A stretch of 42,996 bases of DNA from Candidatus Cloacimonadota bacterium. GTDB lineage: Bacteria; Cloacimonadota; Cloacimonadia; JGIOTU-2. Shown in pieces: positions 3,619 to 5,317 of the stretch (its first letter is position 1; each line of letters opens with the position of its first letter). The notes beneath the pieces were generated by a model. That model saw only the letters and a list, made by a program, of their open reading frames with translations, made no database searches and was not told the DNA's origin. The position numbers and the translations under genes are program-made. The stretch spans positions 1 to 42,996 of the forward strand of contig JAUWMT010000020.1 in the NCBI GenBank assembly GCA_030613025.1. Reading direction: 5' to 3'.

Positions 3619-3726
3619 GACACAGATACACACTGATGTTGCAGATTAACGCTGAATATTTCTTTTGTTATTTATGTATTTTCTTAATCTGCGAAAATCT
3701 GTTCAATCTGCGTGATCTGTGTGCTA
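3619..3726. repeat. Degenerate inverted-repeat element, copy 2
   Basis: This element has the same architecture as copy 1. The left arm is GACACAGATACACACTGATG then GCAGATTAACGCTGA. The right arm is TTAATCTGCGAAAATCTG then CAATCTGCGTGATCTGTGTG. CACAGAT pairs with ATCTGTG at the outer ends, and CAGATTAACGC with the GCG/TTAATCTGC region inside. Both copies end in GTGCTAT followed by an AT-rich -10-like sequence. Elements with ATCTGCG/CAGATTACGC wording are widespread intergenic repeats of unknown function. Confidence 0.6.
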
Positions 3727-3730
3727 TAAT
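3725..3730 (+). promoter_or_regulatory. Possible -10 box at the end of the repeat element
   Basis: A perfect TATAAT lies 6 bases before the preferred ATG (3737) of the HAD gene, and no Shine-Dalgarno sequence lies between them. If used, transcription would start at about the A of the ATG and give a leaderless mRNA. A -35 match at the right spacing (TTCAAT, 3702-3707) is only three of six. The same sequence occurs at 3611-3616 after repeat copy 1, so it may simply belong to the repeat. Confidence 0.3.
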
Positions 3731-3736
3731 TTAAAT

Positions 3737-4396
3737 ATGAAAATTAAAGATATAGATTTAGTTATTTTCGATATGGACGGCACATTGCTGAAGTCTGATA
3801 CTTATGCGGTTGTTGCAATCCAAAATGCACTGAAAGATGTGTATGAAAATCATAATATACTCAGGGAACTACCTTCACCTGAACTCATCTTGAGCAAGAT
3901 CGGGCAGCCATCAGTACAATTTTATCTGGATCTATTGGATGAAGAGCACATGCACTTGATTGATGAACTTCACACTGGAATTCAGGATCATGAAGAAATA
4001 GCACTCAAGTCAGGTAAAGGAATGCTTTTCGAAGGAGCTAAAGAAACACTTGCTTATCTAAAGCAACAAGGTTATCGGATCGGACTGGAAAGCAACTGCT
4101 CGATGCGTTATTTCGACAATGTGAAAAGTGCTTTCGGTCTGGAAGAATATCTTGATATCTCACAATGTATTGGTGAAAAGGAAGGATTGGACAAAATTTC
4201 GATCATTTCAAATTTCATCAAAAAATTAAAGAGCAAAAAAGCAGTGGTGGTTGGTGACAGATATTATGATATTGAGTCCGGAAAAGCTAATAAATGTGTC
4301 ACGGTCGGCTGCTTATACGGATATGGGAAAAAAGAAGAATTGGAGGATGCAGATTATTTGATCGAGGATATACGGGAGTTGAAAACACTATTATAA
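3737..4396 (+). CDS. HAD-superfamily phosphatase, phosphoglycolate phosphatase-like
   Basis: Cytosolic HAD hydrolase of 219 residues. Motif I is FDMDGTL (residues 11-17, nucleophile D12, acid D14), motif II is LESNCS, motif III is the lysine region GEKEGLDK, and motif IV is VVGDRYYDIESG. A helical cap lies between motifs I and II, as in the Gph/pyrophosphatase class that removes phosphate from small metabolites. I chose the ATG at 3737 because residue 1 then sits nine residues before motif I. An upstream in-frame start at 3719 would lie inside the repeat. No Shine-Dalgarno sequence is visible. The exact substrate cannot be read from sequence. Confidence 0.85.
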   Translation: MKIKDIDLVIFDMDGTLLKSDTYAVVAIQNALKDVYENHNILRELPSPELILSKIGQPSVQFYLDLLDEEHMHLIDELHTGIQDHEEIALKSGKGMLFEGAKETLAYLKQQGYRIGLESNCSMRYFDNVKSAFGLEEYLDISQCIGEKEGLDKISIISNFIKKLKSKKAVVVGDRYYDIESGKANKCVTVGCLYGYGKKEELEDADYLIEDIRELKTLL

Positions 4397-4403
4397 AAAA
4401 GAA

Positions 4404-4440
4404 GCTGAAGTCAAGTCTATATCGGACTTGACTTTACAGC
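4404..4440. repeat. Hairpin A, possible terminator
   Basis: Perfect 10-bp stem AAGTCAAGTC / GACTTGACTT (4408-4417 with 4425-4434) and a 7-nt loop. It can be extended by GCTG/CAGC (4404-4407 with 4437-4440) across a 2-nt bulge. It begins 8 bases after the HAD stop. No run of T follows, so termination would not be of the classical intrinsic type. Confidence 0.65.
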
Positions 4441-4457
4441 CGACCTGTTACGGTGTA

Positions 4458-4471
4458 GTACCTTCAGGTAC
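4458..4471. repeat. Hairpin B, 5-bp stem with tetraloop
   Basis: GTACC-TTCA-GGTAC, a perfect 5-bp stem with a 4-nt loop. Short on its own, it is part of the consecutive hairpin series of this gap. Confidence 0.5.
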
Positions 4472-4488
4472 GGAAACGGAAGGCGGTT

Positions 4489-4564
4489 GAGTTAAGAACG
4501 ATTTACGCAGGGCACAGTCAATCAATCCTTAAGTCAAGTCTCCGCCTCAGCGGATTCTTAACTC
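4489..4564. repeat. Hairpins C and D, 10-bp outer stem enclosing a smaller hairpin
   Basis: GAGTTAAGAA (4489-4498) is perfectly complementary to TTCTTAACTC (4555-4564). Directly inside the 3' arm lies a second perfect hairpin, TCCGC-CTCA-GCGGA (4541-4554), that would stack on the outer stem. The internal AAGTCAAGTC at 4531-4540 copies the left arm of hairpin A and could pair with that hairpin's right arm instead. Confidence 0.65.
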
Positions 4565-4605
4565 CTATGAAACTACATTCTAACTTATTCATAATAATAT
4601 TCTGG

Positions 4606-4686
4606 TTACCAAGCCCCACAGCCTGTGTGAAAATGCAAATTCATTGTCATTTTTTAGTGTTTTCACACAGCTACCCAGCTTGGTAA
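4606..4686. repeat. Hairpin E, compound 9-bp plus 11-bp stem
   Basis: The outer stem is TTACCAAGC (4606-4614) with GCTTGGTAA (4678-4686). The inner stem is CTGTGTGAAAA (4623-4633) with TTTTCACACAG (4660-4670). Both are perfect. They are separated by internal loops of 8 and 7 nt and closed by a 26-nt AT-rich loop. Total paired length is 20 bp, which is very unlikely by chance. Confidence 0.75.
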
Positions 4687-4713
4687 TCTTTTTCATCTTA
4701 TTGGTAATCAATG

Positions 4714-4739
4714 TGTATCCAAGCAGGGGCTTGGATACA
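4714..4739. repeat. Hairpin F, perfect 11-bp stem
   Basis: TGTATCCAAGC-AGGG-GCTTGGATACA is a perfect 11-bp stem with a 4-nt loop. Its CCAAGC/GCTTGG core is shared with hairpin E, and GGGGCTTGG (4726-4734) is also perfectly complementary to CCAAGCCCC in hairpin E (4609-4617). E and F therefore look like diverged copies of one palindromic unit. Confidence 0.75.
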
Positions 4740-4779
4740 AGAGTACTGCATTATTTGTCATAGTTTCACCTTAATTGAA

Positions 4780-4797
4780 CTATCAGCTTGCTGATAG
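4780..4797. repeat. Hairpin G, 8-bp palindrome
   Basis: CTATCAGC-TT-GCTGATAG, in practice a 7-bp stem with a 4-nt loop. It lies 56 bp beyond the trmO stop and may serve as transcript-end structure for that gene. No U-tract is seen on either strand. Confidence 0.6.
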
Positions 4798-4852
4798 CGG
4801 AGAGCTCAAGTCTTGACTATCTGCATCTGCGAGGGACTGCGTTCAAATAATT

Positions 4853-5317
4853 TTAACCCGCAAAGGTTTTTTTAGCCCTATGTTTCTCCAACCAGCCAAA
4901 TTTTGGATTGATTATTTTTTCAAATTCTCCAACATAAGGTTTGATATCGATCACAGGAGTACCATCCAGCATATCTACATTTGTAAAAACAATTTTATTA
5001 TCATGCACTTGTTTCACTTTGATAACAGTCATGCCAATGTGGTTTGGACGGTGTGGACTTCGAAGAGCAAATACTCCATGCTCCCTATCTTCCCATGAAG
5101 GATGTCCCTTCATATGTGTTTCAGTGCTTTTATGAAAATAGAAGAGGACGATAAGGTGAGAAAATCCTTCAATATCCATCATTGCCGGCTTGTATTTTTC
5201 GTCAATTTCAATGACTGCTTCAATATTGTCTCTCTGATATCCCTGACCGGGAACGTCCTCTATATTTTTGTAGGGGCTGTGAATTATTCCGATCGGTTCG
5301 ATTTTTATTGACCGCAT
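4853..5317 (-). CDS. trmO: tRNA methyltransferase TrmO / TsaA family (short form)
   Basis: This 154-residue protein of the TsaA-like beta-barrel family (UPF0066) would use SAM to methylate the threonylcarbamoyl group of t6A37 in certain tRNAs, as E. coli TrmO does. Visible family features are the start IEPIGIIHSPY, the central FSHLIVLFYFHKS, and the SPHRPNHIGMTV region followed by DMLDGTPVIDIKPYV. Those segments form the SAM-binding and active-site part. The E. coli enzyme is longer, with a C-terminal extension, and this one has the core only, like many archaeal and bacterial homologues. It is the only - strand gene in the left half and diverges from the rpsP operon across 158 bp. Exact substrate is inferred. 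Confidence 0.82.
   Translation of the reverse strand: MRSIKIEPIGIIHSPYKNIEDVPGQGYQRDNIEAVIEIDEKYKPAMMDIEGFSHLIVLFYFHKSTETHMKGHPSWEDREHGVFALRSPHRPNHIGMTVIKVKQVHDNKIVFTNVDMLDGTPVIDIKPYVGEFEKIINPKFGWLEKHRAKKTFAG

Follow-up and report, generated by a model that had tools for sequence, protein, structure and literature searches.

A probable stack of mobile palindromic repeats between two convergent genes in Cloacimonadota

Why should the short gap between two convergent bacterial genes consist almost entirely of hairpins? The question is raised by positions 4397-4852 of the 42,996-nucleotide stretch of Candidatus Cloacimonadota DNA analysed here (the window, which is contig C97 of the source genome G000, a 2.83-Mb assembly in 98 contigs). 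An initial annotation had suggested either a nest of mobile palindromes of the REP/BIME type or a multi-domain structured RNA. Comparison with related genomes makes it probable that mobile, non-coding palindromic repeats have piled up in the gap by inserting into one another, likely moved by Y1 HUH transposases.

A hairpin-dense gap and its three states

The gap is flanked on the left by a HAD hydrolase gene on the plus strand (3719-4396; PF13419, E = 1e-19) and on the right by a TrmO gene on the minus strand (4853-5317; PF01980, E = 6e-36), in agreement with the convergent neighbours proposed initially. Every stem that had been named in these 456 bp is present: AAGTCAAGTC/GACTTGACTT (4408-4434, 10 bp), GTACC/GGTAC (4458-4471, 5 bp), GAGTTAAGAA/TTCTTAACTC (4489-4564, 10 bp) with TCCGC/GCGGA inside it (4541-4554), TTACCAAGC/GCTTGGTAA (4606-4686) with CTGTGTGAAAA/TTTTCACACAG inside it (4623-4670, 11 bp), TGTATCCAAGC/GCTTGGATACA (4714-4739, 11 bp) and CTATCAGC/GCTGATAG (4780-4797). 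The threefold occurrence of TCAAGTCT (4411, 4534 and 4806) is likewise reproduced, and arms are shared because the gap holds two members of one repeat class, A1 and A2, and two variants of one REP, REP1 and REP2. The excess of hairpins is real and well above chance: the predicted RNA fold of the 456-nt gap has an energy of -145.2 kcal/mol versus -108.0 +/- 5.8 kcal/mol for dinucleotide shuffles (z = -6.4), and the fold with DNA parameters -75.6 versus -44.5 +/- 4.6 (z = -6.8), with none of 100 shuffles matching the gap under either parameter set. An assembly error, which the initial annotation had named as a possible source of the pattern, is unlikely, since in the orthologous contig G001:C78 the left and right flanks are connected in the same way, with about 95-100% identity.

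Among relatives, the gap between the HAD and TrmO genes is found empty, half-filled and full. In G006, which belongs to the same genus, it measures about 60 bp and is free of repeats; the G001 gap contains A1 and A2 but lacks element B. In the window, A2 is split exactly by the 243-bp element B (4564-4806), and joining positions 4552-4563 to 4807-4830 restores a letter-for-letter match to the B-empty site in G001:C78. The orthologous gap in G005 is a run of N and is uninformative for the locus states. The simplest reading of these states is that A would have arrived before B; the order of element C and the REP1-REP2 pair within B would follow from copies elsewhere. The locus offers a clean natural record of nested palindrome insertion.

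These comparisons also bear on the idea that the hairpins began as bidirectional terminators shared by the convergent gene pair and were elaborated locally. The orientation of the genes and one terminator-like site in the gap (minus strand, 4434-4408) are in line with such an origin, which is nevertheless scarcely credible given that the G006 gap lacks these hairpins and that the same sequences recur as dispersed repeats. The hairpins may terminate transcription as a by-product, without having originated for it.

The A palindromes, like the other repeats of this gap, are given on the plus strand. A1 (4421-4501) is a long form with arms GACTTGACTT..GTTGAGTTAAGAACGA and an inner hairpin at 4458-4471; positions 4408-4417 form an inverted arm of this class. 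Dispersed copies of A1 were detected by BLAST at 91% in G000:C81 and at 88% in G001:C175 and G009:C218, and its arm pattern occurs in 8 of 17 genomes of the family. A2, whose left part (TTAAGTCAAGTCTCCGC..GCGGATTCTTAACT, 4521-4563) and right part (CAAGTCTTGAC, 4807-4817) lie on either side of B, is uninterrupted in G001:C78, G001:C69, G007:C80, G007:C64 and G005. The arms GACTTGACTTAA and TTGAGTTAAGAA are common to A1 and A2, which are found singly, paired or as short runs within the family. In G007:C80, TCCGCCAGCTGGCGGA stands in place of the inner A1 hairpin, which shows that the palindrome inside A1 can be exchanged.

Element B and the repeats that it carries

Element B has constant ends, CCTATGAAACTACATTCTAACTT on the left and GTTTCACCTTAATTGAACTATCAGCTTGCTGATAGCGGAGAGCT on the right, and produces no target duplication, as the empty site in G001 reveals; its boundary is ambiguous within the shared letters CTC. 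The interior varies by lineage and is made mostly of other palindromes. Further copies exist in the source genome in C40 (about 96%) and C86 (89%). The right-end hairpin (CTATCAGCTTGCTGATAG, 4780-4797) is kept in all members, with a compensatory variant in G097 (CTATTTGC..GCAAATAG), and a search for its pattern gave hits in 10 of the class's 125 genomes and none for the control. Matches to a covariance model built on the B ends come from 11 of 125 Cloacimonadota genomes, including 22 in G099, although the model cannot span long interiors and the matches therefore rest mainly on the right end. The left-end hairpin is visible in many copies and not clearly in the one at this locus. The element also has short inverted ends, ATGAAANNN/NNNTTTCAT, whose covariation is modest: two pairs of this helix change on both sides, and the score exceeds that of all 500 shuffles, a ranking that is not a probability. 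A short frame (MKLHSNF) running through the left end was considered as coding and set aside because the copies diverge right after it.

The 39 fetched copies with both ends no more than 400 bp apart span 87-353 bp, mostly near 166 bp. Immediately before the left end, 36 of them have CT and 28 have ACT, although a few of the least stringent left ends may have matched by chance. The sequence 3' of B is usually a palindrome of the A class, as in TTAAGTCAAG, CGAGTCG and CGTAAGGAACGACGAGTCG. In G099, an intact version of one such target palindrome adjoins another copy of the element, and at one G001 locus two head-to-tail copies are seen, the second of which has the right end of its predecessor as its target.

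Inside B lies the REP1-REP2 pair (GTTACCAAGC, GTATCCAAGC), which is dispersed without B elsewhere. REP1 is divided into a left half (GGTTACCAAGCCCC, 4604-4617) and a right half (AGCTTGGTAATC, 4677-4688), and occurs uninterrupted as GGTTACCAAGCCCCAGCTTGGTAACC in G059:C10; REP2 (GTATCCAAGCAGGGGCTTGGATAC, 4712-4741) is intact. Both belong to one dispersed class, GTWHCCAAGC..GCTTGGDWA, with 29 perfect CCAAGC-class sites in the source genome versus none for the reversed pattern used as a control. Changes in one arm are matched by changes in the other (GTTC, GTTA, GTAT), which indicates that pairing has been kept. The loop of REP1 is filled by the 59-bp element C (CTGTGTGAAAA..TTTTCACACAG, 4618-4676), which is missing from the REP1-REP2 pairs of G059, themselves found without B. 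A further palindromic insert of about 100 bp, D, occupies the site TTGTCATT (4644-4651 in the window) in the B copies of G001, and is absent or deleted in G000. The TTGTCATT overlap flanking D was considered as a target duplication and not retained, as deletion between TCATT repeats explains the state of the window equally well.

Scattered copies with variable neighbours, which the initial annotation had proposed as the mark of mobile palindromes, are thus seen for A, B and the REPs alike. The same distribution weighs against a functional structured RNA in all or part of the segment. The low folding energy of the gap and some covariation, both at the ends of B and in its right-end hairpin, could be read that way, but hairpins recognised as single-stranded DNA would covary as well, promoter-like sites occur in near chance number, the modules disperse separately and orthologous gaps lack them. 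A search of Rfam yielded no family near the gathering score for the gap, only sub-threshold eukaryotic snoRNA-type and similar chance matches. We regard an RNA function as very improbable, and the multi-domain RNA proposed earlier is disfavoured on the same grounds, with no Rfam family near its gathering score and a segment that is not inherited as a unit.

Two other arrangements of these repeats were observed. The RAYT-side CCAAGC palindrome in G000:C35 (L055, 1285-1355) recurs in G001:C52 (L045, reverse strand, 990-1150) with a different loop filling, and such differing contents in two congeners suggest that REP loops may serve as repeated landing sites. In G000:C26 (L014, 1-700, reverse strand) and G001:C75 (L031, 1-1050), REPs of the GTTCCCAAACC type form tandem repeats of about 300-370 bp, each unit of which holds the B left-end sequence without the right end. 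Evenly spaced 34-bp matches in these two contigs had suggested an integron attC array; they belong instead to the REP-rich tandem repeats, in which no cassette genes were seen.

Transposase genes and a candidate mechanism

The source genome contains 11 matches to Y1_Tnp, among them several genes of RAYT size that have one and the same palindrome to their left and right: GTTCCCAAGC in C60, CTTTGCGAAAG in C86, CTTTACCAATT in C35 and TGTCATGGACC in C95. Palindromes of the GTTCCCAAGC class flank a RAYT gene in G008:C102, and a RAYT gene in G012:C51 lies between A-type palindromes, one kind per side; both proteins match PF01797. Flanking of RAYT genes by inverted palindromes therefore holds at the level of the class (G000:C60, G008:C102 and G012:C51), while the exact REP1 and REP2 variants were not found beside a RAYT gene. 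Together with modules scattered among unrelated neighbours and orthologous gaps that lack B or every repeat, RAYT genes bordered by palindromes of the same classes indicate that the initial REP/BIME-like reading was right in kind. The gap is an example of an already known kind of repeat, not a new RNA.

On this evidence, the stack would have been built in two steps. A1 and A2, as a pair of REP/BIME-type palindromes, would first have entered a short convergent gap; the non-autonomous B would then have inserted 3' of CT inside A2 without duplicating its target, carrying REP1-REP2 with the loop of REP1 already filled by C. The most likely mechanism would be a single-strand, hairpin-guided cut-and-join reaction performed in trans by Y1 HUH transposases of the IS200/IS605-RAYT superfamily. 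TnpAREP enzymes cleave REPs in single-stranded form, at CT on either side (PMC8266576), and the ends of IS200/IS605 elements combine subterminal hairpins with guide tetranucleotides (PMC6006769); the CT-bounded, duplication-free ends of B and its right-end hairpin would fit that chemistry. Among 64 Y1 loci fetched from 15 genomes, none had a Y1 gene enclosed by B ends, and no copy of B, scanned as far as 3 kb upstream of the right end, was of sufficient length to contain one; this search for the parent is limited by the fragmented drafts making up most of the genomes, in which the longest copies may be lost. Since no enzyme for B was found, we infer its IS200/IS605-like mobilisation, the chemistry of the reaction and the role of a RAYT or TnpA as its mover; B is most plausibly a non-autonomous IS200/IS605-like element.

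Several features count against this account, namely the short inverted ends of B, which are unusual for IS200/IS605, the lack of a GTAG/CGTC head on the palindromes and a left-end hairpin kept only in some window copies. B could instead be a REP-targeting non-autonomous element moved by a transposase or recombinase of another type, such as IS110, given that several insertion sequence families target REPs (PMC1525189) and that IS110 members can do so. The short inverted ends and the Y1 parent not found would agree with such a mover; the absence of target duplication, the conserved hairpin just inside the right end and the CT found at both boundaries are more in keeping with Y1, and we consider a non-Y1 mover, the chief alternative, rather unlikely. 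Returning to Y1 mobilisation, we tentatively entertain a more specific form of it, in which B would constitute a distinct family of non-autonomous elements that land in REP palindromes, transport other REPs and are moved in trans by RAYTs cutting at CT beside REPs. RAYTs would then spread composite elements, beyond REPs alone.

Known systems resemble parts of this arrangement. As in the REPtrons formed by REP/BIME repeats and RAYT genes (PMC2817692, PMC3733652), short multi-copy intergenic palindromes are often paired and the same class lies on both sides of a RAYT gene, but the copy number here is modest (the 29 perfect sites) and the hairpin foot has no GTAG/CGTC head. A GTAG or CGTC tetranucleotide at the 5' hairpin foot marks canonical REPs (PMC3733652, PMC2817692); by inspection, neither heads REP1, REP2 or the A arms, and these repeats are therefore called REP-like and not assigned to those superfamilies. 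One GTAG (4455-4458) does occur, but only across the foot of A1's small inner hairpin (4458-4471). B resembles PATEs, non-autonomous IS200/IS605 derivatives (PMC7290912), in being gene-free, with constant ends, a subterminal hairpin and no target duplication. It differs in landing in REP-like palindromes, in its variable interior made of other palindromes and in having no autonomous parent that was found; for the last reason B is not filed as a PATE, though it would work like one. IS1397, ISKpn1 and IS621 likewise insert at a preferred point of palindromic repeats (PMC1525189), whereas B, at 87-353 bp, has no transposase.

The B family and its nesting in Cloacimonadota are apparently undescribed in the literature searched; the publications found that mention both Cloacimonadota and palindromes, judged by their titles and parts of their abstracts, include none on such repeats. 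REP-like repeats are frequent in this phylum, as are RAYT genes. With its CT rule and its landing sites in REPs, B offers a concrete way to test which elements RAYT enzymes can mobilise.

Two further Y1 loci were observed in the source genome. C20 (L054, 1000-2100) holds a RAYT gene between GAGTCGG/CCGACTCGTGA palindromes; it shares 51% identity with the RAYT associated with A in G012 and may be decayed, as its frame from ATG encodes only 133 amino acids. In C8 (L051, 58-3186), a 1043-amino-acid restriction-modification enzyme of the Eco57I type contains an in-frame Y1_Tnp (IS200-like transposase) domain, placed between its N6-methylase part and the region of the NPPY motif; the frame is open over its whole length.
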